Notes under the pieces: model-generated
Databases searched by the model: none
What the model was told of the DNA's origin: nothing
Seen by the model: the letters and a program-made list of their open reading frames with translations, nothing else
Origin: Natronobacterium texcoconense
Lineage (GTDB): Archaea; Halobacteriota; Halobacteria; Halobacteriales; Natrialbaceae
DNA length: 64,000 bases
Direction of reading: 5' to 3'
NCBI RefSeq assembly: GCF_900104065.1
Contig: NZ_FNLC01000001.1
Coordinates: 806,001 to 870,000 of the forward strand
Part shown: positions 1 through 10,473 of the stretch, piece by piece
How the letters are laid out: each line of letters starts with the position of its first letter
Numbering within the stretch: the stretch's first letter is position 1
Translations under genes and position numbers: made by a program

Positions 1-1863
1 CCGCAGTTCGGACGGAACCGGGCCGACGAGTCGCTCGACGAGGTCGGGGGTGCCGACCACGACGCGGTCGCCGTCCACGACGCCGCTGACACCCTCACCG
101 GGGTGGCGTTCGAACTCGGTTGCATCGACGGGAATCGACGCGTCGCCGGCCGACGGACGCTCCTCGGCGGGTTCCTCTCGCTCGAGCAGTTCACTGCTGG
201 CGGCGCGAGACTGGACCGTTCCACCGTCCGCGACGGCGGCTTTATCGCCCGAATCGCGTACGTAGTCGGTGATCGCCGACGCAGCCGGGTGTTCGGAGTA
301 CTGTTCGACCGCCGCGGCGCGCTCGATCGCTTCCCCGTCGCCGGTCACCGAGACGACCTCCATATCGCCCGAGGTGAGCGTCCCGGTTTTGTCGAACACG
401 AGCGTCTCGACCGACGGAGCCGACTCGAACAGTGCCGCGTTCGTGACGACGATCCCGCGCTCGAGTGCATCTCGCAATCCGCCGGCGATCGCGAGCGGCG
501 TCGCCAGCCCCATCGCACACGGACAGGAGACGACGAGAACCGTGAGACCGGTGAGCAACGCGTCCGCCGGGGCTGTGCCGGTCGCGAGCCGGTACCCAGT
601 TACGACCGTCGCCAGGACGATCACCAGCGGGACGAAGATCGTCGCGAGTTTGTCGGCGAACCGCTGAATCCCCGGCGACTCGCTCTGTATCTCCCAGAGC
701 AAGGTCGCGATACGGTCGATCGTACTCTCCGCGTCCTCGCCGACCTCGACCACGAGCGCACTGTCGGTGACGACCGAGCCGCCGATCACGTCGTCGCCTT
801 CCTCCCGCGTCACCGGCAGCGACTCACCGGTCAGGACCGACTCGTCGACGGCTGCAGCGCCGTCGACGACCGTTCCGTCGATCGGGACGCGTTCGCCCGG
901 CCGGACGATCACCTCGTCGCCGGGCTCGAGTTCCTCGAGACCGACCGTCTCGGTGCCGTCGGCCGTTCGTCGGGTCGCCTCGCGGGACCGGGCTGCGGTC
1001 AGGTCGGAGACGAGGCTGGTCGCCCGGCGTTTGATCCGACGTTCGTAGTAGGTGCCGAGGCTGACGACCATGATGACGGCGACGGTGACGTCGTAGTAGA
1101 GGTGGGTGCTCCCGGTCGCCAGCGCGACGGTACTGTACGCGTAGGCTGCCACGGCCGCGAGCGAGACCAGCAAGTCCATGTTCGGCTGGCCGACCCGGAG
1201 ACTGACGTAGGCTCCCCTGAGGACGGGATAGCCCGTGTAGAACAGGACGATCGTCGTCATCAGGCCGAGGATCGTCATCGGAAGGAACACGCCCACCTGG
1301 CTCGTCGCGTCGACGTCTAAGATCCCGGTCTCGATCCCGACGTAGCTGGGATAGAGGTAGACTAGATACCACGGCATGATCAGCATGCTGAAGAAGCCAC
1401 CGACCACCAGCCGCGTGGCCAGGTCGTGGTCGCGTCGCCGCGAGATTCCGTCGTCGTCCTCGTCCCTGAAGTACGTCGTGTAGCCGTACCCCGAGAGTCG
1501 CTCCGGAAGTTCCTCGAGTGTCACCTCGTCGGGATCGTAGACGACGCGAGCGGTGTCGGTCGCGTAACTCGCTTCGACCGCATGAATTCCCGCCTCCTCC
1601 TCGCCGAGAATCGAGAGGAACCCCTCGCAGGTCGAACAGTGCATCCCCTCGACGCCGAGAAACACCTCCTCGGCGCCGTCCGGGACGGATCGACTCGTCT
1701 CCTCGCCTGCACGTCGCTCGAGGTCGTCCCGATCCACGCCGTCGATCCCCTCGAGGGCCTCGTGGACCTCCAGACAGCCGCGACAGCAGAAGGTCCCGTC
1801 GACGGCGGCATCCGTTACCGGGGGGTCCGGCGTCGGAAGGTCGCAGAGAGAGCAGGTGGTCAT
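1..1863 (-). CDS. copA: Copper-type P1B ATPase (C-terminus outside window)
   Basis: Heavy-metal P-type ATPase that moves a soft metal, probably Cu+, across the membrane. Over 600 residues are visible and the C-terminal end lies beyond base 1. An N-terminal cysteine cluster (C4, C7, C26, C27, C30) looks like a small zinc or metal-binding knuckle. A heavy-metal-associated domain with MHCSTC follows, then membrane helices, the TGES actuator motif, the metal-site helix with SCPCAMGLATP, and the phosphorylation motif DKTGT. The CPC motif is typical of Cu+/Ag+ pumps. ATG at 1861-1863 is the first start after a divergent intergenic region shared with an HTH_10 regulator. Metal specificity is inferred from motif and family. 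Confidence 0.93.
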   Translation of the reverse strand, partial: MTTCSLCDLPTPDPPVTDAAVDGTFCCRGCLEVHEALEGIDGVDRDDLERRAGEETSRSVPDGAEEVFLGVEGMHCSTCEGFLSILGEEEAGIHAVEASYATDTARVVYDPDEVTLEELPERLSGYGYTTYFRDEDDDGISRRRDHDLATRLVVGGFFSMLIMPWYLVYLYPSYVGIETGILDVDATSQVGVFLPMTILGLMTTIVLFYTGYPVLRGAYVSLRVGQPNMDLLVSLAAVAAYAYSTVALATGSTHLYYDVTVAVIMVVSLGTYYERRIKRRATSLVSDLTAARSREATRRTADGTETVGLEELEPGDEVIVRPGERVPIDGTVVDGAAAVDESVLTGESLPVTREEGDDVIGGSVVTDSALVVEVGEDAESTIDRIATLLWEIQSESPGIQRFADKLATIFVPLVIVLATVVTGYRLATGTAPADALLTGLTVLVVSCPCAMGLATPLAIAGGLRDALERGIVVTNAALFESAPSVETLVFDKTGTLTSGDMEVVSVTGDGEAIERAAAVEQYSEHPAASAITDYVRDSGDKAAVADGGTVQSRAASSELLEREEPAEERPSAGDASIPVDATEFERHPGEGVSGVVDGDRVVVGTPDLVERLVGPVPSELR

Positions 1864-1869
1864 CGTACG

Positions 1870-1879
1870 CGAACGTTCG
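1870..1879. promoter_or_regulatory. Palindrome in copA leader
   Basis: A perfect 10-base palindrome, CGAACGTTCG, lies 7 bases upstream of the copA start codon, inside its leader. It could be an operator for the divergent regulator, but it could also be chance in GC-rich DNA. Confidence 0.25.
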
Positions 1880-2014
1880 AACGCACGTGCGGTAGGGATG
1901 GTGCCGAACGCGTTCGCCTTCCGCCGAATCCGCCCTCACATCCAGTCAGAACCGGATTCTCACGTTCGAGGAACGGACGCTATACATATCCTCCAGGCTT
2001 CACCAGTACAGCAT

Positions 2015-2644
2015 ATGTCCACTTCGCACCGTCGGTCGCCGTCACTGTTCGCCGAGGACGGGCCGATCAGAGCGGTGCTCGAGGTCGAGCCGGCCGATTC
2101 CGTCGGCTGTGCACTCGTCGAGGAGACCCCGAACGCGACGAGCGTCACGCAGACGATCGGCAGTCGCGACTCCTGTACAGTCTGTCGAGTCGCCGCGACA
2201 GTTCGCGAGGAGGACGAACTCGAGACGAAGTACCTGTCGACGGAGGTGTCCGACCACTGCGTTCGGACGACCCTCGATCGGTTCGAGTGTATCACGGACC
2301 TCGAGGGAGTCGACGACGGTGCACTCGTCGTGTCGGTCGTCGTCGATGACCGGGCCGGACTGACCAGCATCCTCGACGCCCTCGAAGAGACGGGCGCGGA
2401 CGTTCGCCTGCGCCGAATTGGGCAGGGCGAGGACGGCGACGACGGAACGATCGAACTCGACGCGATGGCGATTACGGACAAACAGCGGGAAGCAGCGAAA
2501 CTCGCCGTCGAACGTGGGTACTACGAGACACCGAGACGGACCGATCTCGAGGCCCTCGCTACCGAACTGGACGTCAGCAAGTCCGCGGTCTCACAGCGGC
2601 TCAACGCCGTCGAACGAGTGCTGATTCGCCGCCTCGTCGACTGA
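2015..2644 (+). CDS. HTH_10 (Bat-type) regulator with cysteine-rich sensor half
   Basis: A 209-residue DNA-binding regulator. The C-terminal third is the HTH_10 domain of bacterio-opsin-activator proteins (around residues 155-205, with RGYYETP and SKSAVSQRL). The N-terminal half holds five cysteines (C32, C54, C57, C82, C92) and H81, including a CTVC pair that could bind a metal. ATG at 2015 is chosen because a TATA-like TATACATAT at 1981 lies about 30 bases upstream, giving a leaderless transcript; the reading frame opens earlier. It is divergent from copA, so a role in copper control is a reasonable inference. Ligand and targets are unknown. Confidence 0.85.
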   Translation: MSTSHRRSPSLFAEDGPIRAVLEVEPADSVGCALVEETPNATSVTQTIGSRDSCTVCRVAATVREEDELETKYLSTEVSDHCVRTTLDRFECITDLEGVDDGALVVSVVVDDRAGLTSILDALEETGADVRLRRIGQGEDGDDGTIELDAMAITDKQREAAKLAVERGYYETPRRTDLEALATELDVSKSAVSQRLNAVERVLIRRLVD

Positions 2645-2744: not shown

Positions 2745-3128
2745 TCAGTCGGTGTCCGACTGGACGAGCCAGGGTCTGATCGCCTGGAGCACTGCTACGA
2801 CGAGTTTCGACTCGGCTGCCCGAAGCCGCTGTGAGACCGCGGACTTCGAGATGCCGAGTTCGTCCGCCAGGTCCGCGAGACTGGTTTCCCGTGGTTGATC
2901 GTAGTAGCCACGGAGGTACGCGAGCTCGAGCGCTTCCAGCTGTTTCGTCGTGAGCGAACCGATGTCGACTTCGACGACGTGGTCGCCACTGGGATCGGCC
3001 ACGGTCATCTCCTGAGGGTCGACCGTCGCGTCGAGTTCGGCCAGCTGTCCGAGCACCTCCTGGACCGATTCGATGTCCGAAACCTCGGTCGTTACCCGCA
3101 ATCGATCGGCGTTTTCGATGTCCGTCAT
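2745..3128 (-). CDS. Small HTH_10 domain regulator
   Basis: A 127-residue protein. The N-terminal half is a short alpha/beta region without cysteines. The C-terminal half is an HTH_10 domain (LTTKQLEALELAYLRGYYDQP, then ISKSAVSQRL). It resembles the C-terminus of the convergent gene at 2015-2644, so the pair may be diverged paralogues. It is shorter than most Bat-type regulators, which often carry PAS or GAF sensors. Start at 3126-3128 is the first ATG after the stop upstream. Targets cannot be read from the sequence. Confidence 0.8.
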   Translation of the reverse strand: MTDIENADRLRVTTEVSDIESVQEVLGQLAELDATVDPQEMTVADPSGDHVVEVDIGSLTTKQLEALELAYLRGYYDQPRETSLADLADELGISKSAVSQRLRAAESKLVVAVLQAIRPWLVQSDTD

Positions 3129-3318: not shown

Positions 3319-4224
3319 TTATTCGTCGTCGCTCGAGACGGTCGACTCGGTCGCCCGGTCGGGACTCTCCCTGGTGGCGTCAGTCGTTCCGGCCCGCTCG
3401 AGCGACCGGTGGCGATTCTCGACCCACGCCCATACCGAGAACCGACCGACGAGGTGGCCGGCCAGGGCCACGCTGACGTAGGCCAGGCCGATGCCGGCGA
3501 GGACGTCGATCACCCAGTGGATCCCGAGGTACATCGTCGAAATCGCGACCGAAATCGCGAGAAACGCCGCGACGACGGCCCACTTCGGGTAAATCTCTCG
3601 AGTGCGGTAGGCCAGGAAGCCGACGGTCGCCGCCAGCGACGTATGTAGGGAGGGGAAGACGTTGGTGTTGCGGTTGACCTGCCTGGTGAGGTGCTGGTAC
3701 TGCGGGTACGTGTCGTACAGCAGCGCCTGGATGAGGTCGGGCATCATGTTTCGCGGGCCGTAGGCGACGACCAGCGTGTAACAGAGCAATCCGAGCAGGT
3801 AGTTGAGCGTGTAGGCAGTAAGCAGTTCCCGGAGCGGCCGCGTGTTCGACAGCGCGAAGTACGCAACGACCGGGAACACGAGCAAGAAGACGTAGCCGTA
3901 GATGTAGATGAACGAGAAGTACGCTGTCAACTCTGCTGTCGCCTGTTCCTGAATCCAGAGGATGAAGTACTGCTCGAGTTCGTAGATCGGTCTCGTGAAG
4001 TGCCAGCCGACGATCAACGAGACGTCGGGAACGACGTCCCTGGCAATGCCGTTAAACAGCAAGACGACTGCGAGGAGGGCCGTGATCGGTGCGGCCGCAC
4101 GCACCCGCTCGCGCCACTCGAGTCGGGTATCGCGGAGCCGGTACCGACCGACGAAGACGGCCGTCGAGACGAGCAGCATGAACGTGACGACGACGACCAG
4201 CTGGAGGAGTACCTCGAGCAACAT
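3319..4224 (-). CDS. PAP2-superfamily membrane phosphatase, copy A
   Basis: A 301-residue polytopic membrane protein of the PAP2/Aur1-like branch. Visible motifs are VFPSLHTS (conserved PSxH) and STMYLGIHWVIDV (SxxxxxxHxxxD), the two histidine motifs that form the phosphatase or phosphotransferase site. YGPRNMMPD precedes them. The classical KxxxxxxRP motif is not evident, as in the inositol-phosphotransferase-like branch. The C-terminal 40 residues are charged and probably cytoplasmic. The start ATG (4222-4224) shares one base with the stop of the binding-protein gene upstream, so translation is probably coupled. Substrate is unknown; a lipid phosphate or polyprenyl phosphate is the usual class. 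Confidence 0.85.
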   Translation of the reverse strand: MLLEVLLQLVVVVTFMLLVSTAVFVGRYRLRDTRLEWRERVRAAAPITALLAVVLLFNGIARDVVPDVSLIVGWHFTRPIYELEQYFILWIQEQATAELTAYFSFIYIYGYVFLLVFPVVAYFALSNTRPLRELLTAYTLNYLLGLLCYTLVVAYGPRNMMPDLIQALLYDTYPQYQHLTRQVNRNTNVFPSLHTSLAATVGFLAYRTREIYPKWAVVAAFLAISVAISTMYLGIHWVIDVLAGIGLAYVSVALAGHLVGRFSVWAWVENRHRSLERAGTTDATRESPDRATESTVSSDDE

Positions 4225-6092
4225 CAGCGTCTCACCCGGAGTCGACCGTTCGCGTCGTAGCTGAATCCGGCCGTTTCGAACGCCTCGCGTGCGGCCTCGA
4301 CGTCGATCTCGCCGTCGTCGCCGAGGAAGGGGACGGCGGGATCGTCGCCGTCCCACGCGAGTTCCTCGGGGACCCACGCTTCGGCGACCGGCGTCGTGAC
4401 CGGCCGGGCGTGGCCGTCGAAGACGTCCGCTACGAGCCAGGACTCGTCGAGCAGTCGCGCGACGATCCGCCGGAAGTGGGGGTTACCAAACGGTGCCCGA
4501 CGGTGGTTGAATCCGACGTGGTAGAACGTCCGGGCGGGCGACTCGAGCAGTTCCACGCCCTCGCTCTCGGCCGCGAGGTCGATCGTGTCGTCGACGACGT
4601 AGCTCTCGATGGGGTCGGTCGTGACGTCGGCGTCCCCGCCCGAGATGATCTCGATCGCCGACGTACTTCGGGGGTCGATCTGGACGCGAAACTCCGCGAC
4701 CGACGGTGCGGGGAGGTCGACGTCGTCACGGAGCGTGAAGTGGTCCGCGTACCGCTGGAAGGTAACGTGTTCCCGTTCGTTTCGCTCGGCGAACTCGAAC
4801 GGGCCGGAGCCGATCGCAGGCACGTTGTCCACGACGACGGCATCGGTCGTACCGTCGGCGATCTGGACGCCCGTCACGTTCGCCGGACGCGATCGCTCCT
4901 GCCAGACGTGTGCCGGCAGGATCGGTACCGTGAGCGCGCGTTCGGCGACCGGTTCGCTCGCCTCGATCGGGATCTCGAGTCGATCCCCGTCCGCATCGAT
5001 TTCGTCGGCGACGACGGGCGCGACGTGACCGCGATGGCGCGGCGAGGGAGCCGACACGCCGTCGGCACCGAGCGTCGTATCTTCGAGAAAGCGGTACGTG
5101 AACGCGACGTCGCTGGCGGTAATCGGCTCGCCGTCGTGGAACTGGCAGTCCTCGCGTAACTGGACCGTGAGGGTGCCGCCGCTCTCGTCTTCGTTTCCGT
5201 CCCACTCCCAGGATTCTGCGAGCCACGGGCGATATCGCGATTCGCCGCCGTCTTCGTCGCCGTTCTCTGCAGTCGTCCCGTCCGTGTCGTCGGTTCCGGG
5301 CACCGGGCCGACCGCGAGCGAATCGTACAGCAGGTCCGTAAACAGCCCCCGGTTGCGGTACTCGACCGACAGCGGGTTGAGGTTCCAGGACGGCCGCGGA
5401 TCAGTGTGAACCGCCCGGATTCGATCGGTTTCGTCGTCTTCGGGCTCGAGTCCAAGGTATCCCAGCCGGGTTCCGGGGTGGAACTCTCCCCAGCCGCCGA
5501 ACCGGTCGGTCCTGACGAGTCGATACTCCTCGGGTGCACAGACCGGGACGAACGGCTGCTGGGTCGTGAACGCCTCGAGCGTCTCCGCGACAGCCTCCCG
5601 GCGCTCGTCGCCGTTGGCCCGTAGCTGGGCCTCGAGGAGGTTGTCGAGCGCCAGATCCGTAACGCCGAACGGGTTCTGCCAGCCGGGTTCGTCGGCGTAC
5701 GTCGAGTGGAGCGTCTCGTAGAGAAATTCCGGCTCGGTCCAGTCGTGGTACCAGCCGACGTAGACGTCGAAGTCGTGGTTGATCAGGACTGTCCGAAGAA
5801 ACTCCTCCGTGGAGAGTAACTCGATCGAGGCGTCGATGCCGACGGTCTCGAGGGCGTCACGAACCCGTCGTGTGAGCTGGATACTCTCGCGGTCGCCGTC
5901 GGCGGGCAGCGTGGTGATCGTCAGCGAGAGTGGGTCGATCCCGTCCCGGTTGACGGCGCTTCGAATCTGGCGGATACAGCCACTCGTCGCGACCGTCGTG
6001 CCCGTCGCGGCGAGCATCGCGCGACGACTGGTTCCGCGGCTCCGACCGTTACTAGACCGATTACGCGTCTCAGCAGAGGGGGAACCAGACAT
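4224..6092 (-). CDS. Circularly permuted family 5 solute-binding lipoprotein, copy A
   Basis: A 622-residue Tat lipoprotein: twin arginine at 23-24, lipobox with C39. The rest has the SBP_bac_5 (DppA-like) fold in swapped order. Residues about 55-205 look like the normal C-terminal lobe (QLTRRVRDALETVGIDASIE, DFDVYVGWYHDWTEPEFLYE). The normal N-terminal part follows: NLNPLSVEYRNRGLFTDLLYD, RPWLAESWEWD and FHDGEPITASDVAFTYRF near 315-335, then GSGPF. It ends at EAAREAFETAGFSYD, where normal members would run into the C-terminal lobe. No permease or ATPase gene is nearby. A one-base overlap links it to PAP2 copy A. Ligand unknown; it may sense or deliver rather than import. Confidence 0.82.
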   Translation of the reverse strand: MSGSPSAETRNRSSNGRSRGTSRRAMLAATGTTVATSGCIRQIRSAVNRDGIDPLSLTITTLPADGDRESIQLTRRVRDALETVGIDASIELLSTEEFLRTVLINHDFDVYVGWYHDWTEPEFLYETLHSTYADEPGWQNPFGVTDLALDNLLEAQLRANGDERREAVAETLEAFTTQQPFVPVCAPEEYRLVRTDRFGGWGEFHPGTRLGYLGLEPEDDETDRIRAVHTDPRPSWNLNPLSVEYRNRGLFTDLLYDSLAVGPVPGTDDTDGTTAENGDEDGGESRYRPWLAESWEWDGNEDESGGTLTVQLREDCQFHDGEPITASDVAFTYRFLEDTTLGADGVSAPSPRHRGHVAPVVADEIDADGDRLEIPIEASEPVAERALTVPILPAHVWQERSRPANVTGVQIADGTTDAVVVDNVPAIGSGPFEFAERNEREHVTFQRYADHFTLRDDVDLPAPSVAEFRVQIDPRSTSAIEIISGGDADVTTDPIESYVVDDTIDLAAESEGVELLESPARTFYHVGFNHRRAPFGNPHFRRIVARLLDESWLVADVFDGHARPVTTPVAEAWVPEELAWDGDDPAVPFLGDDGEIDVEAAREAFETAGFSYDANGRLRVRR

Positions 6093-6128
6093 CTCGGTTT
6101 CGTTCGTTTGTCAGTTCGCCAGTGACGG

Positions 6129-6141
6129 TATAACAGTATTG
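6129..6141 (-). promoter_or_regulatory. Promoter block of lipoprotein copy A
   Basis: On the gene strand this reads CAATACTGTTATA, 37 bases upstream of the start codon. The same 13 bases occur at 8813-8825 ahead of copy B. The TTATA end fits a TATA box; the CAATACTG part may be a regulator site kept after duplication. Confidence 0.6.
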
Positions 6142-6177
6142 CGCTGACTGTCGACCGGAGAGGATCCACTGGCCACG

Positions 6178-6981
6178 CTACGTCGATCCTGACCCACGGT
6201 CGACGAGGACGCTCGAGAGGGCAACGCAGACGACCGCGAGGAGGATACCGGCAATGACGTCGATCACCCAGTGAAATCCGAGGTACATCGTCGAGATGCC
6301 GACCGAGACCGCCAGGACGAGGGCGACGGGGAACCAGCGAGGGTACTGTTCTCGGGTCCAGTAGGCGAAGAGAGCGACGGTCGCAGCCAGCGAGGTGTGC
6401 AACGAGGGGAAGACGTTGGTGCTGTGGTTCACCTGGCCGGTGAGGTGCTGGTACTCCGGACTGGTGTCGTACATAAGCGTGCTCGCGAGTACGTCGGGCA
6501 TCACGTTTCGTGGACCGAACGCAACCACGACGAGATAGAAGGCGACCCCGATCGCGTAGTTCAACGAGTACGCCGCCAGGAGCCGCCGAAAGTGGACGGT
6601 GTTCGACAGCGCGAAGTACGCGACGCCGGGGAAGATAAGCAGGAAGGCGTAGCCGTAGACGTAGATAGCCGAGAAGTACGCCGTCACCTCCGGCGTCGCA
6701 ATCGACTGGAAGACGAGGACGAACTCCCCCTCGAGGTCGTAGAACAGCCAGGTTAGCTGGACCCCGATCTCCTCGGAGATCGTCGGCCCCTCCTGTCGCA
6801 TGACGCGGTTGATCCCGAGAACGACGAGGAGCACGGCGAGCAACGGCCCGCTTTCCCGGAGTCGGGGTCGCCACTCCGTCCGAAGAGTTGCGAGGCGATC
6901 ACGACCGACGAAGGCGGCCGCAGCGATCGGGAGCAAGATACCGACCACGACGACCACGCGAATCAGGACTTCGACGAGCAT
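6178..6981 (-). CDS. PAP2-superfamily membrane phosphatase, copy B
   Basis: A 267-residue membrane protein, clearly paralogous to the gene at 3319-4224 through its whole length. It keeps FGPRNVMPD, VFPSLHTSLAATV and STMYLGFHWVIDVIAGI, so both catalytic histidine motifs are intact. It ends shortly after the last membrane helix and lacks the charged C-terminal tail of copy A. It starts 18 bases after the stop of lipoprotein copy B and is likely co-transcribed with it. With copy A this shows that the whole lipoprotein-phosphatase unit was duplicated. Substrate unknown. Confidence 0.85.
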   Translation of the reverse strand: MLVEVLIRVVVVVGILLPIAAAAFVGRDRLATLRTEWRPRLRESGPLLAVLLVVLGINRVMRQEGPTISEEIGVQLTWLFYDLEGEFVLVFQSIATPEVTAYFSAIYVYGYAFLLIFPGVAYFALSNTVHFRRLLAAYSLNYAIGVAFYLVVVAFGPRNVMPDVLASTLMYDTSPEYQHLTGQVNHSTNVFPSLHTSLAATVALFAYWTREQYPRWFPVALVLAVSVGISTMYLGFHWVIDVIAGILLAVVCVALSSVLVDRGSGST

Positions 6982-6999
6982 GCGATAGATCCCTCGCGA

Positions 7000-8781
7000 T
7001 CAGTACTGCCCCACCAGTCGGTCGTCTTCGTCGTACTCGAACCCGGCGTCCGCGAACGTCTCCCGCGCCGACTCGAGATCGAGGTCGCCGTCGTCACCGA
7101 GGAACTCGCCGTCGCCGTCCCACGCCAACCGCTCTGGCGTCCACTCCTCGGTGACCGGCGTCGCGATCGGCTCCGCGTCGCCACGGAAGACGGTCTCGGC
7201 GAGCCAGGACTTGTCCACCAGTCGTGCGATTGCACGGCGCAACTGGACGTTGTCCTCGCCGAGGGAGTCCCGCCGGGTGTTGAACCCGAGGTAGTAAAAC
7301 GTCCGAGACGGTGGCTCGAAGTGCGAAACGGCGTCGTCGTCCGGGATTCGTGTCGCTGCGTACGCCTGTATCGGCGAGGCGGTTACGTCGGCGTCGCCGC
7401 TTGCAACCCGTTCGACCATCGAGGCGCTGTTCGGGTCGACGTCGAAGTGGATCTCTGCTGCCAACTGATCGGTATCGTCGTCCTCGGTCTCTTCTTCCTC
7501 ATCGGCTCGCTCTCGGAGCGTGAAGTGTTCCTCGTGGCGCTCGAGCGTGAGCGACTCCCGTTCGGACCGACTTGCCATCCGGTACGGGCCACTCCCGACG
7601 GGATCGACGTGGTCGGTGACGAGGTTCCAGCGGCCCTGTGGAGCCGACGCCTGGTCGTCGCTTCGCGCCTCGAGTCGCTCCTGCCAGACGTGTGCCGGCA
7701 GAATGGGGACGGTGAGAACCCGCCCCGTGACGGCCGCTCCCGCCTCGGTCGTGATCGACAGGTCGAACTCGCCGTGGACCTCGAGGTCGTCGACCGCCGA
7801 AACGCGACCACAGTACCGCGGTGCCGGCGAGGGAAGCGGCGAGTCCGGCGTCGTGTCCGCGAGAAACCGATAGGTGAATGCGACGTCGTCGGCCGTCACC
7901 GGCTCTCCGTCGTGGAACCTGGCGTTCTCGCGGAGAGCGAGTCGTACCGTCGTCGACCGTCCGTCCCGTTCGACGTCCCACGAGGACGCGAGCCAGGGCC
8001 GGATTTCGCCGTCCTCGTAGACGCCAAGTGAGTCGTACAGCAGGTCGACGATCGTTCCGCGCCGACGCATCGTCACCGACAGCGGGTTGCAGTTCCGCGT
8101 CGGCCGCGTATCAGTAAGCAGCGCGTGTACTTGCTCGTCGTCGGTCGGCTCGAGGTCGAGGTAGCCGAGACGAGACGCCAGCTGATGGCCGTCGAGGTCG
8201 TCGACGTCGAACCGTTCCGCCCGGACGAGGCGGTGTTCGGCCGGCCGACAGATCGGCTCGAACGGCTTCGTCGCTGTGATCTCCTCGAGCAGCGACGCCA
8301 CGTACTCCTGGCGCTCGTCGCCGTCCGTCCGGCGCTGGGCCTCGAGCAACCGGTCGACGGTTCCGTTCGCGAACCCGAACGGGTTCTGGCGGCCGGCCTG
8401 GGTCGCGAACCGCGAGTGGAGGGCCGCATAGAGGAAGTCGGGATCGGCGCCGACGTCGACGGGATACCGATCGACGAAGAGGTCGGCGTCGTGATCGAGC
8501 AGCACCGATTCCAGGAATCCGGCCTGGGACCGGACGTCGAGCGTGACGTCGATGCCGACCGCCTCGAGGTTCGACTCGAGGTGGCGAGCGATCCGGATCG
8601 CGCCGCGGTCGTCGTCGGTCGGGACCGTCACGAGGGTCAACGAGAGCTGTCTGCCGGTGTCCTCGACGACGGTATCGACGCGACTCACGCAGCCGCTCGC
8701 GGGGAGAAGGGCACCGGCAGCAGCGGCGAGGACGGATCGGCGGCGAAGGGACTCGTCGGAGGGGGCGGGGGTCCAATTCAT
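7000..8781 (-). CDS. Circularly permuted family 5 solute-binding lipoprotein, copy B
   Basis: A 593-residue Tat lipoprotein (R13-R15, lipobox C31), paralogous to 4224-6092. It shows the same swapped order: the canonical C-terminal lobe comes first (RIARHLESNLEAVGIDVTLD, then PDFLYAALHSRF and QNPFGF). NCNPLSV, IRPWLASSWDVE, FHDGEPVTADDVAFTYRFL and VGSGPYRM follow, and it ends at LESARETFADAGFEYDEDD. ATG at 8779-8781 gives a proper Tat signal; an open frame extends to 8844 but crosses the promoter. It has an acidic insert (EEEETEDDDTD) and no transporter partners. Its function is unknown; pairing with PAP2 suggests a link to envelope lipid or phosphate chemistry. Confidence 0.82.
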   Translation of the reverse strand: MNWTPAPSDESLRRRSVLAAAAGALLPASGCVSRVDTVVEDTGRQLSLTLVTVPTDDDRGAIRIARHLESNLEAVGIDVTLDVRSQAGFLESVLLDHDADLFVDRYPVDVGADPDFLYAALHSRFATQAGRQNPFGFANGTVDRLLEAQRRTDGDERQEYVASLLEEITATKPFEPICRPAEHRLVRAERFDVDDLDGHQLASRLGYLDLEPTDDEQVHALLTDTRPTRNCNPLSVTMRRRGTIVDLLYDSLGVYEDGEIRPWLASSWDVERDGRSTTVRLALRENARFHDGEPVTADDVAFTYRFLADTTPDSPLPSPAPRYCGRVSAVDDLEVHGEFDLSITTEAGAAVTGRVLTVPILPAHVWQERLEARSDDQASAPQGRWNLVTDHVDPVGSGPYRMASRSERESLTLERHEEHFTLRERADEEEETEDDDTDQLAAEIHFDVDPNSASMVERVASGDADVTASPIQAYAATRIPDDDAVSHFEPPSRTFYYLGFNTRRDSLGEDNVQLRRAIARLVDKSWLAETVFRGDAEPIATPVTEEWTPERLAWDGDGEFLGDDGDLDLESARETFADAGFEYDEDDRLVGQY

Positions 8782-8810
8782 TCGCTTCTGTCGGACAGTT
8801 TCGACGTTGG

Positions 8811-8827
8811 TATATAACAGTATTGTG
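8811..8827 (-). promoter_or_regulatory. Promoter of lipoprotein copy B
   Basis: On the gene strand this reads CACAATACTGTTATATA. It contains the 13-base block shared with copy A (8813-8825) and a TATA box about 30 bases before the ATG at 8781, consistent with a leaderless transcript. It also contains CACAATA, the reverse of the TATTGTG box seen at thiol genes; that match may be chance. Confidence 0.6.
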
Positions 8828-8967
8828 TCCGACGTTCGTCTCACCGCCGCTCCCTATCGGGGTTTGGATCGGCGAGTCGTCCGCCAGCGGGCTCGGAGTA
8901 AGCGATCCGTACCGACCGGTCGGTCGCGAACACAACATCAATAGGCGAACCGACGAAACGTTTGCCC

Positions 8968-9264
8968 ATGCGCATCGCCGCCGAACGGATCGAACGGCTT
9001 CACGACCTCGCGAGAGCGGCGGCGATGGAAGACGATCAGGAGCGCGCACGATACTACGTCCGACTCGCACGCCGAGTTGCCGAACGGAACCGGCTCACCC
9101 TCCCCCGGAAGTTCCGCCGGTTCACCTGCGACGACTGCGACGCCTACCTCCGACCGGGACGGAACGCTCGAGTTCGCCTCCAGGACGGCCACGTCGTGAT
9201 CACTTGCGATTGCGGGTCGCAGGCGCGATATCCGTACGAGGGGGACGACGAACGCGAAACGTAA
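8968..9264 (+). CDS. rnp4: RNase P protein component 4 (Rpp21/Rpr2 family)
   Basis: A 98-residue protein subunit of archaeal RNase P, the tRNA 5-prime processing ribozyme. The N-terminal helices (ERIERLHDLARAAAME, ARYYVRLARRVAERNRL) and the conserved PRKFRRFTCDDCDAYL lead into a zinc ribbon made by CDDC and CDCG. ATG at 8968 matches the usual family start (MRIAAERI); a TTG six bases earlier is less likely. It is the first gene of a probable operon with yhbY and mscS, a common haloarchaeal order. Confidence 0.92.
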   Translation: MRIAAERIERLHDLARAAAMEDDQERARYYVRLARRVAERNRLTLPRKFRRFTCDDCDAYLRPGRNARVRLQDGHVVITCDCGSQARYPYEGDDERET

Positions 9265-9316
9265 GCGTCGTTCCGTTCGCGAAGATTCAAACCACTCGAC
9301 GCCATTACTCGTGGGT

Positions 9317-9565
9317 ATGGACCGACAGGAACTCCAGAAACGAGCGCACGACCTCGACGTCACCGTCTGGGTCGGCAAGAGCGGTATCGAATCCGTCGTC
9401 GACGAACTCGACGACCAGCTAACCGATCGAGACCTGGTGAAGGTCAAATTCCTGCGTGCCGCACGCGCCGGGAGTTCGACCGAGGAGAAGGCCGAGGATC
9501 TGGCAGACCGTGTGAGTGCGGAACTCGTCGAAACCCGCGGTCACACCGCCGTGCTGCATCGATGA
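9317..9565 (+). CDS. yhbY: YhbY-type CRM RNA-binding protein
   Basis: An 82-residue single CRM domain protein. WVGKSGIESVVDELDDQL and LVKVKFLRAARAG match the YhbY fold, whose GxxG-like loop (GKSG) contacts RNA; in bacteria it associates with pre-ribosomes. ATG at 9317 is chosen over GTG at 9311. The stop codon overlaps the start of the MscS gene (ATGA at 9562-9565), indicating coupled translation. Its place between rnp4 and mscS suggests a ribosome or tRNA maturation role. Confidence 0.9.
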   Translation: MDRQELQKRAHDLDVTVWVGKSGIESVVDELDDQLTDRDLVKVKFLRAARAGSSTEEKAEDLADRVSAELVETRGHTAVLHR

Positions 9566-10473
9566 TCCCGATCCCTCTCCAAGCGGAGACAGGAGAGGAA
9601 CTCGGCCCGATCGGGAACGCACTCGAACCTGTCGCGGGCGGCCCACTCGCCGCTAGCCTCGAGGGAGCAGTCCTCTTTCTGATCGCGTTTCTCGTCGTCT
9701 CCGCGATCGGGCGGCTCGTCGTCGTCCCGCTCGTTCGACGGGGGCTCGAGACCCGCGAACTCGACGCCCACGCACGGAAACCGCTGTTGAAGCTGACCCG
9801 GTTCGGCGTCGTCTTCCTGGCGATTGCAATCGCTTTCGGCTTCGCCGGCTTCGGCAACTTCCTCGTCTCGATGGCCGGCATCGCGGCTGCCGGCGCAGTG
9901 GTGGTCGGGCTAGCAATGCAGAGTACGATCGCGAACTTCGTCGCCGGCGTGTTCATCTTCGTCGACGAACCGTTCCGGATCGGCGACTGGATCGAGTGGG
10001 ACGAGTACTCGGGCGTCGTCGAAGACGTCAGTCTCCGGGTCACGCGCGTCCGGACGTTCGACAACGAACTGCTGACAGTCCCCAACGCACAGCTTACCGA
10101 CTGCGTCATCAAGAACCCCGTCGACGCCGACAAACTCCGGATGCGGTTCGTCTTCGGCATCGGCTACGACGACGACATCGACCGGGCACGCCAGATCATC
10201 GTCGACGAAGCGATGCGCCACCCGGACATCATGGACGACCCCGAACCGTCCGTTCGACTCACCGAACTCGGCGACTCCGACGTCGGCCTCGAGTCGAGAT
10301 TCTGGATCGCAGACCCCTCACGTAGCGATTTCGTCCGGATCAAAGGCGAGTTCGTCACCGCAGTGAAACGGCGGTTCGACGAGGAAGGGATCGACATCCC
10401 CTACCCCGTCCGGACGCTCGAGGGTGCTCTCGGACTCGAGACTGGGCGGAGTGTTCTCGAGTCCGCGGAGTAG
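9562..10473 (+). CDS. MscS-family mechanosensitive channel
   Basis: A 303-residue small-conductance mechanosensitive channel. Three N-terminal membrane helices are followed by the pore helix region (AGIAAAGAVVVGLAMQSTIANFVAG) and the beta domain (FRIGDWIEW, GVVEDVSLRVTRVRTFDNE, VPNAQL). The C-terminal alpha/beta domain ends near IPYPVRTLEG. Length fits simple MscS proteins. It would release solutes on hypo-osmotic shock, relevant to a salt-loving cell. It is coupled to yhbY by a four-base overlap and ends the operon. Confidence 0.93.
   Translation: MIPIPLQAETGEELGPIGNALEPVAGGPLAASLEGAVLFLIAFLVVSAIGRLVVVPLVRRGLETRELDAHARKPLLKLTRFGVVFLAIAIAFGFAGFGNFLVSMAGIAAAGAVVVGLAMQSTIANFVAGVFIFVDEPFRIGDWIEWDEYSGVVEDVSLRVTRVRTFDNELLTVPNAQLTDCVIKNPVDADKLRMRFVFGIGYDDDIDRARQIIVDEAMRHPDIMDDPEPSVRLTELGDSDVGLESRFWIADPSRSDFVRIKGEFVTAVKRRFDEEGIDIPYPVRTLEGALGLETGRSVLESAE

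Follow-up and report, generated by a model that had tools for sequence, protein, structure and literature searches.

Two lipoproteins of the haloarchaeon Natronobacterium texcoconense have the family 5 (DppA/OppA) solute-binding fold in circularly permuted form, and each is encoded together with a membrane protein of the PAP2_3 family in a cassette that has been duplicated as a whole. A natural circular permutation in this fold, annotated as an ordinary substrate-binding protein, appears to be undescribed: a search of the open literature, with most subscription journals outside it, returned no permuted OppA/DppA-type protein and no haloarchaeal pairing of a solute-binding protein (SBP) with a PAP2 protein, and no solved structure of a permuted family 5 SBP was found. 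Below, we describe the cassette, the evidence for the permutation, the enzyme and the relatives of both proteins, and consider what the pair may do.

The cassette and its surroundings

The window, that is, the whole stretch of 64,000 nucleotides that was analysed, contains two SBP genes and two PAP2_3 genes, which are listed with their main features in Table 1. In copy A, the ATG of the PAP2 gene at 4224 has exactly one base in common with the stop codon of the SBP gene, in keeping with the coupling by overlap described in an earlier note on this DNA; in copy B, 18 nt lie between the two genes. The start of SBP B is placed at the Met at 8781, which is an invariant start in 54 relatives; a longer reading frame begins at 8844. 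SBP B carries a Tat-type RR pair and a GC lipobox, of which the RR and the Cys are invariant, at the level of the motifs, in the same 54 relatives, and from such motifs the SBPs are predicted to be exported as lipoproteins. Neither reaches the cut-off of any NCBIfam equivalog.

Table 1. Features of the duplicated cassette and of the regulator gene downstream of it (positions in the window)
Feature	Position	Strand	Description
SBP A	4224-6092	-	Lipoprotein of the SBP_bac_5 family with a circularly permuted chain, 622 aa; matches PF00496 in two stretches (137 bits)
SBP A, former canonical C-terminal segment, now N-terminal	5532..5906	-	Residues 63-187
SBP A, former canonical N-terminal/middle segment, now C-terminal	4254..5243	-	Residues 284-613
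PAP2 A	3319-4224	-	PAP2_3 membrane protein, 301 aa; PF14378 68 bits
SBP B	7000-8781	-	Lipoprotein of the SBP_bac_5 family with a circularly permuted chain, 593 aa counted from the Met at 8781; matches PF00496 in two stretches (174 bits)
SBP B, former canonical C-terminal segment, now N-terminal	8173..8646	-	Residues 67-224 of the 614-aa ORF
SBP B, former canonical N-terminal/middle segment, now C-terminal	7027..8091	-	Residues 252-606
PAP2 B	6178-6981	-	PAP2_3 membrane protein, 267 aa; PF14378 61 bits
PAP2 B, FPSLH with catalytic His195	6397..6411	-	Residues 191-195; invariant in 39 and 37 relatives
PAP2 B, S-T-M-Y-L-G-F-H-W-V-I-D with catalytic His237 and Asp241	6259..6294	-	Residues 230-241; His and Asp invariant
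HTH_10 (bat-type) regulator	2745..3128	-	Downstream of the cassette; PF04967 78 bits

A homologue of the HTH_10 gene in Table 1 is found near the cassette in eight loci, and the gene is a possible regulator of the cassette. It is convergent with a second HTH_10 gene (1856-2644, plus strand). Upstream of the cassette, the region 8962-10473 (plus strand) encodes an RNase P Rpr2-type protein and an MscS-type channel.

Circular permutation of the family 5 fold

The earlier note had read, in both lipoproteins, a canonical C-terminal part in front of the canonical N-terminal part, and this order is confirmed by Pfam and by phmmer comparison with PDB chains and with canonical proteins encoded in the organism's own genome. 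In SBP A and SBP B alike, positions 267-364 of the PF00496 profile (gathering cut-off 32.4 bits; whole-protein scores in Table 1) are matched near the N-terminus and positions 1-285 at the C-terminus. Residues 63-187 of SBP A align to 405-529 of a canonical haloarchaeal SBP (L085:15404-17101; i-E 4e-8), and residues 376-617 to 176-401 of the same protein. SBP B aligns to PDB entry 4qfk in three pieces, with 67-201 on 374-506, 258-331 on 49-128 and 464-557 on 241-331. The junction is sharp: residue 617 of SBP A corresponds to canonical residue 401 and residue 63 to canonical residue 405. The cut point is the loop behind the conserved E-A-G-Y helix, and the old C-terminus runs on into the old N-terminus; both chains end just past the A-G-F/Y helix, where the earlier note had placed their ends.

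What has been exchanged, however, is two segments of the chain and probably not, as had been thought, two whole lobes. We take domain II of DppA to span approximately residues 261-478, which places the cut inside lobe II, so that lobe II is where the new termini and, with them, the lipid anchor are expected.

Homologues classed as permuted or canonical were scored with two profiles of canonical proteins, one in native order and one rotated at the cut. The rotated profile scored higher for 130 of the 138 permuted-class homologues, a number that still includes one misclassified fusion protein (L219, see below), and for none of the four canonical proteins, which are a weak control because they had also been used to build both profiles. 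SBP B reached 119.7 bits with the rotated profile, as one domain covering 84-605, against 97.5 bits with the native one; for SBP A the two were tied (102.3 and 102.4 bits, respectively), with no gain from rotation. An AF2 model of SBP B (mean pLDDT 83.6) is confident over residues 64-614 except for short loops. When it was searched sequentially against the PDB with Foldseek, the best 50 rows were all binding proteins of the family 5 type, with TM scores of 0.3-0.5, and such low values are expected when a permuted chain is matched to canonical structures. It is highly improbable that the permutation is merely apparent, an annotation or fusion artefact arising from two partial genes: nothing beyond the odd order of the segments speaks for this, whereas more than 100 archaeal and bacterial homologues have the rotated order in intact reading frames, and both the confident model and the low sequential TM scores argue against it.

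The window SBPs share with the cluster C proteins (DppA, OppA, NikA and AppA) the PF00496 family, the FHDG...T-A-DDV core and the two-segment match to PDB chains. They differ from them in being rotated at the loop past the E-A-G-Y helix, in carrying the lipid anchor on a different part of the fold and in having no adjoining permease or ATPase. A precedent for permutation is known in another SBP cluster, namely MglB-2 (Tp0684) of Treponema pallidum, described as a 'Type Ic/Cluster Bc' permuted ligand-binding protein (PMC4990184). It, too, is a bilobed ligand-binding lipoprotein of the ABC type whose chain has been circularly permuted in nature, but it has the cluster B glucose-binding fold, is ABC-linked and has no PAP2 partner.

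The PAP2 enzymes

Both PAP2 proteins score above the PF14378 cut-off of 27 bits (68 bits for PAP2 A, 61 bits for PAP2 B). The catalytic triad His195/His237/Asp241 is intact and, along with Arg158, is invariant among the relatives (39 and 37) compared. As read from their sequences, the proteins have neither the classical KX6RP motif nor the Arg of the third motif, a loss that they share with Aur1-like PAP2_3 proteins. The AF2 model of PAP2 B (mean pLDDT 88.5) finds its best PDB matches with Foldseek in 9ivc (Aur1-Kei1) and 9vj4 (IPC synthase), with an E-value of 6e-4 and a TM score of about 0.5; phosphatases of the PgpB type follow close behind. With these enzymes, which are their best though moderate structural matches, the window proteins have in common the PAP2_3 family and the His/His/Asp triad; they are distinguished by their archaeal origin, an identity of only about 17-20%, the missing KX6RP motif and the pairing with a binding lipoprotein.

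Conservation of the gene pair

The pair was followed through an order-wide survey of 293 genomes together with the organism's own genome, from which 40 loci were hand-picked for family spread rather than at random. In 35 of these 40 loci, representing 22 genera and seven haloarchaeal families, a PAP2 gene lies directly downstream of the permuted SBP gene; the others are L046, L051, L053, L061 and L063. Among 76 named loci that came from an independent scan, PAP2 directly follows the SBP in nearly all. The two genes are mostly spaced by -3 to +10 nt, as measured where there is no doubt about the start, and the pair is often present in duplicate. No ABC permease or ATPase genes adjoin the two window copies, and elsewhere none lie beside PAP2-linked SBPs apart from a handful of matches that are weak or distant (L060, L067 and L198). 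The architecture and the linkage are firm, and the recurrence of the pair in other haloarchaea away from ABC genes is of the kind that the earlier note had named as support for its reading. In Natrinema, the second SBP (copy A) is usually without a PAP2 of its own.

Some neighbouring families recur. A motif search over all collected loci, which yields counts and not frequencies, found a GT-C/PMT_2-like protein motif in 16 SBP loci and a WPYTS membrane protein in 18. The latter (L054:9597-10862 and homologues, 19 loci) matches no Pfam family and is for the most part encoded immediately before the pair. An arylsulfotransferase-like protein is encoded near approximately seven loci. The GT-C/sulfotransferase neighbourhood is present in a minority of loci only. 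Second-tier PAP2 relatives, at about 40-45% identity, are without an SBP at 13 of 20 sampled loci, and two PAP2 relatives that have no SBP lie near the same recurrent families.

The SBP tree (112 rows, from a quick search with SH-aLRT support and no bootstrap) places the PAP2-linked permuted SBPs in one clade of 51 rows, with SH-aLRT support of 100, beside the ABC-linked permuted SBPs. Within it, 43 rows are PAP2-linked, eight have neither kind of partner and none is ABC-linked. The A and B types split before the genera of Natrialbaceae in the SBP tree and the PAP2 tree alike, and these matching splits indicate that the cassette was duplicated as a unit. The duplication with retention of both genes, as read in the earlier note, is supported and is ancient, the double cassette being older than the Natrialbaceae genera. 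Three further proteins (L218 and L227/L234) have long branches placed outside the main clade of permuted SBPs and may have been permuted independently; the four rotated canonical outgroups do not form one clade.

The PAP2-linked and ABC-linked clades, defined beforehand by neighbourhood and tree, were also compared position by position. About 27 positions, including most of a GxQNPFG stretch, do not vary within the PAP2 clade but do so within the ABC clade, although the former is less divergent and lower divergence alone yields some fixed positions. Dedication to a single ligand or partner would be expected to leave such a pattern. Both clades, however, retain an Asp-Pro motif at 134-135, which leaves room for ordinary binding of peptides.

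Permuted relatives that belong to ABC transporters

It had been supposed that permutation goes with the orphan state of these binders, and this idea was rejected, because ABC-linked permuted paralogues exist. The organism's own genome encodes a permuted SBP_bac_5 protein, the C5 paralogue (L046:6851-12927), directly followed by DppB/DppC permeases and two Opp-type ATPases; judged by gene content, the operon encodes a complete ABC importer of the Dpp/Opp type in which the binding protein is permuted. ABC-linked permuted SBPs are common in haloarchaea: homologues of this paralogue are ABC-linked at 34 of 40 sampled loci, as are plasmid-borne alphaproteobacterial homologues (Nitratireductor, Ketogulonicigenium and Roseomonas; L236-L238), also permuted, in all three cases inspected. 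The ABC-linked group (L046, L098-L137 and L236-L238) shares the permutation with the window SBPs and differs from them in the permease and ATPase genes that follow; its members are annotated simply as ABC transporter substrate-binding protein. Their position in operons indicates that the large family 5 fold tolerates moved termini while working with permeases. In the phylum outside Halobacteriales, nearly all of the matches listed cover the canonical N-terminal segment only.

The Ketogulonicigenium and Roseomonas operons adjoin hydantoinase/oxoprolinase and peptidase genes. A methanogen-side relative (L218:6730-8472) is a permuted SBP with a C-terminal PGF-type anchor, near ABC ATPases. Another candidate, L219:4355-7390, had been labelled as permuted by the best-hit classifier and was rejected. 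In this protein of 1011 aa, two family 5 SBPs are fused in tandem (N-C-N-C), and an ABC operon follows the gene; a permutation could arise by way of such an intermediate.

What the pair may do

The best-supported reading, to which we give a probability of about 0.4, is that a permuted ABC-type lipoprotein has been co-opted by an Aur1/PgpB-like envelope enzyme, for which it binds a ligand or the substrate; the contact between the two, the ligand and the reaction are what we infer. Each cassette would then encode two proteins that act as a unit at the outside of the cytoplasmic membrane, where the Tat-exported, lipid-anchored SBP would capture a ligand in its cleft and pass it to, or gate, the PAP2_3 enzyme encoded downstream, rather than an ABC permease. 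The enzyme would be an Aur1/PgpB-like lipid phosphatase or phosphotransferase, and its substrate likely a phosphorylated lipid of the envelope or else a glycan intermediate linked to a polyprenyl carrier. The binder would descend from, or have a common ancestor with, the permuted ABC-type SBPs that are still paired with permeases in the genome. The 'ligand-sensing or lipid-modifying unit' of the earlier note may be apt, since it fits the GT-C-like and arylsulfotransferase-like neighbours and the Aur1/PgpB-like model of the enzyme. In favour of co-option are the conserved adjacency, the single clade without ABC-linked members, the joint duplication, the invariant export and catalytic residues, and the positions fixed in the PAP2 clade. 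Against it stand the eight clade members of 51 without PAP2, the Natrinema SBPs that lack a PAP2 of their own, the many second-tier PAP2 relatives without an SBP, the Asp-Pro motif common to both clades, the moderate TM score to Aur1 with PgpB-type phosphatases close behind, and the small share of loci that have the GT-C/sulfotransferase neighbourhood.

Alternatively, the SBP might feed an ABC importer encoded elsewhere, with PAP2 as a metabolic neighbour that, for example, removes the phosphate from the nutrient in question before it is taken up. Several SBPs can make use of a single set of permeases, and the genome, with its several Opp/Dpp operons and a permuted paralogue with its own ABC operon, could supply such an importer; the retained core fold residues and Asp-Pro motif would also suit it. 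We nevertheless find this rather doubtful, given that the PAP2 clade contains no ABC-linked protein and many fixed positions of its own, and that one membrane enzyme, with no permease, is linked to the SBP across seven families. Descent of the gene order from an ancestral operon, with no joint function, is improbable: cassettes have been lost or split (copy A in Natrinema, several loci without PAP2), as it would allow, yet the linkage persists over 22 genera in otherwise differing surroundings and the SBP and PAP2 were duplicated jointly.

Another possibility is that the SBP fold is past small-ligand binding and acts on PAP2 as Kei1 acts on Aur1, by stabilising or controlling it. The mycobacterial lipoprotein LpqW, which we take to have an SBP5-like fold and no ABC partner, offers a parallel. 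It channels PIM4 toward lipomannan and acts against PimE (reviewed in PMC3229680), and it resembles the window SBPs as a lipoprotein steering envelope glycolipid synthesis; it differs in belonging to another clade and in having its partner in the PimE pathway. Conservation of the gene pair would also be consistent with a scaffold or regulator, which is unlikely all the same: GxQNPFG is conserved in the canonical ligand-lobe segment, which suggests that the binding site has been kept.

Returning to co-option by the envelope enzyme, we tentatively suggest that a permuted SBP was repurposed once, early in the haloarchaea, as the binding subunit of a membrane lipid phosphotransferase, so as to serve an enzyme and not a transporter. 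The PAP2-linked clade would then let one test how a binding protein from transport comes to be recruited by an enzyme of the envelope, and this in haloarchaea, whose enzymes for recycling lipids and glycan carriers are poorly known.
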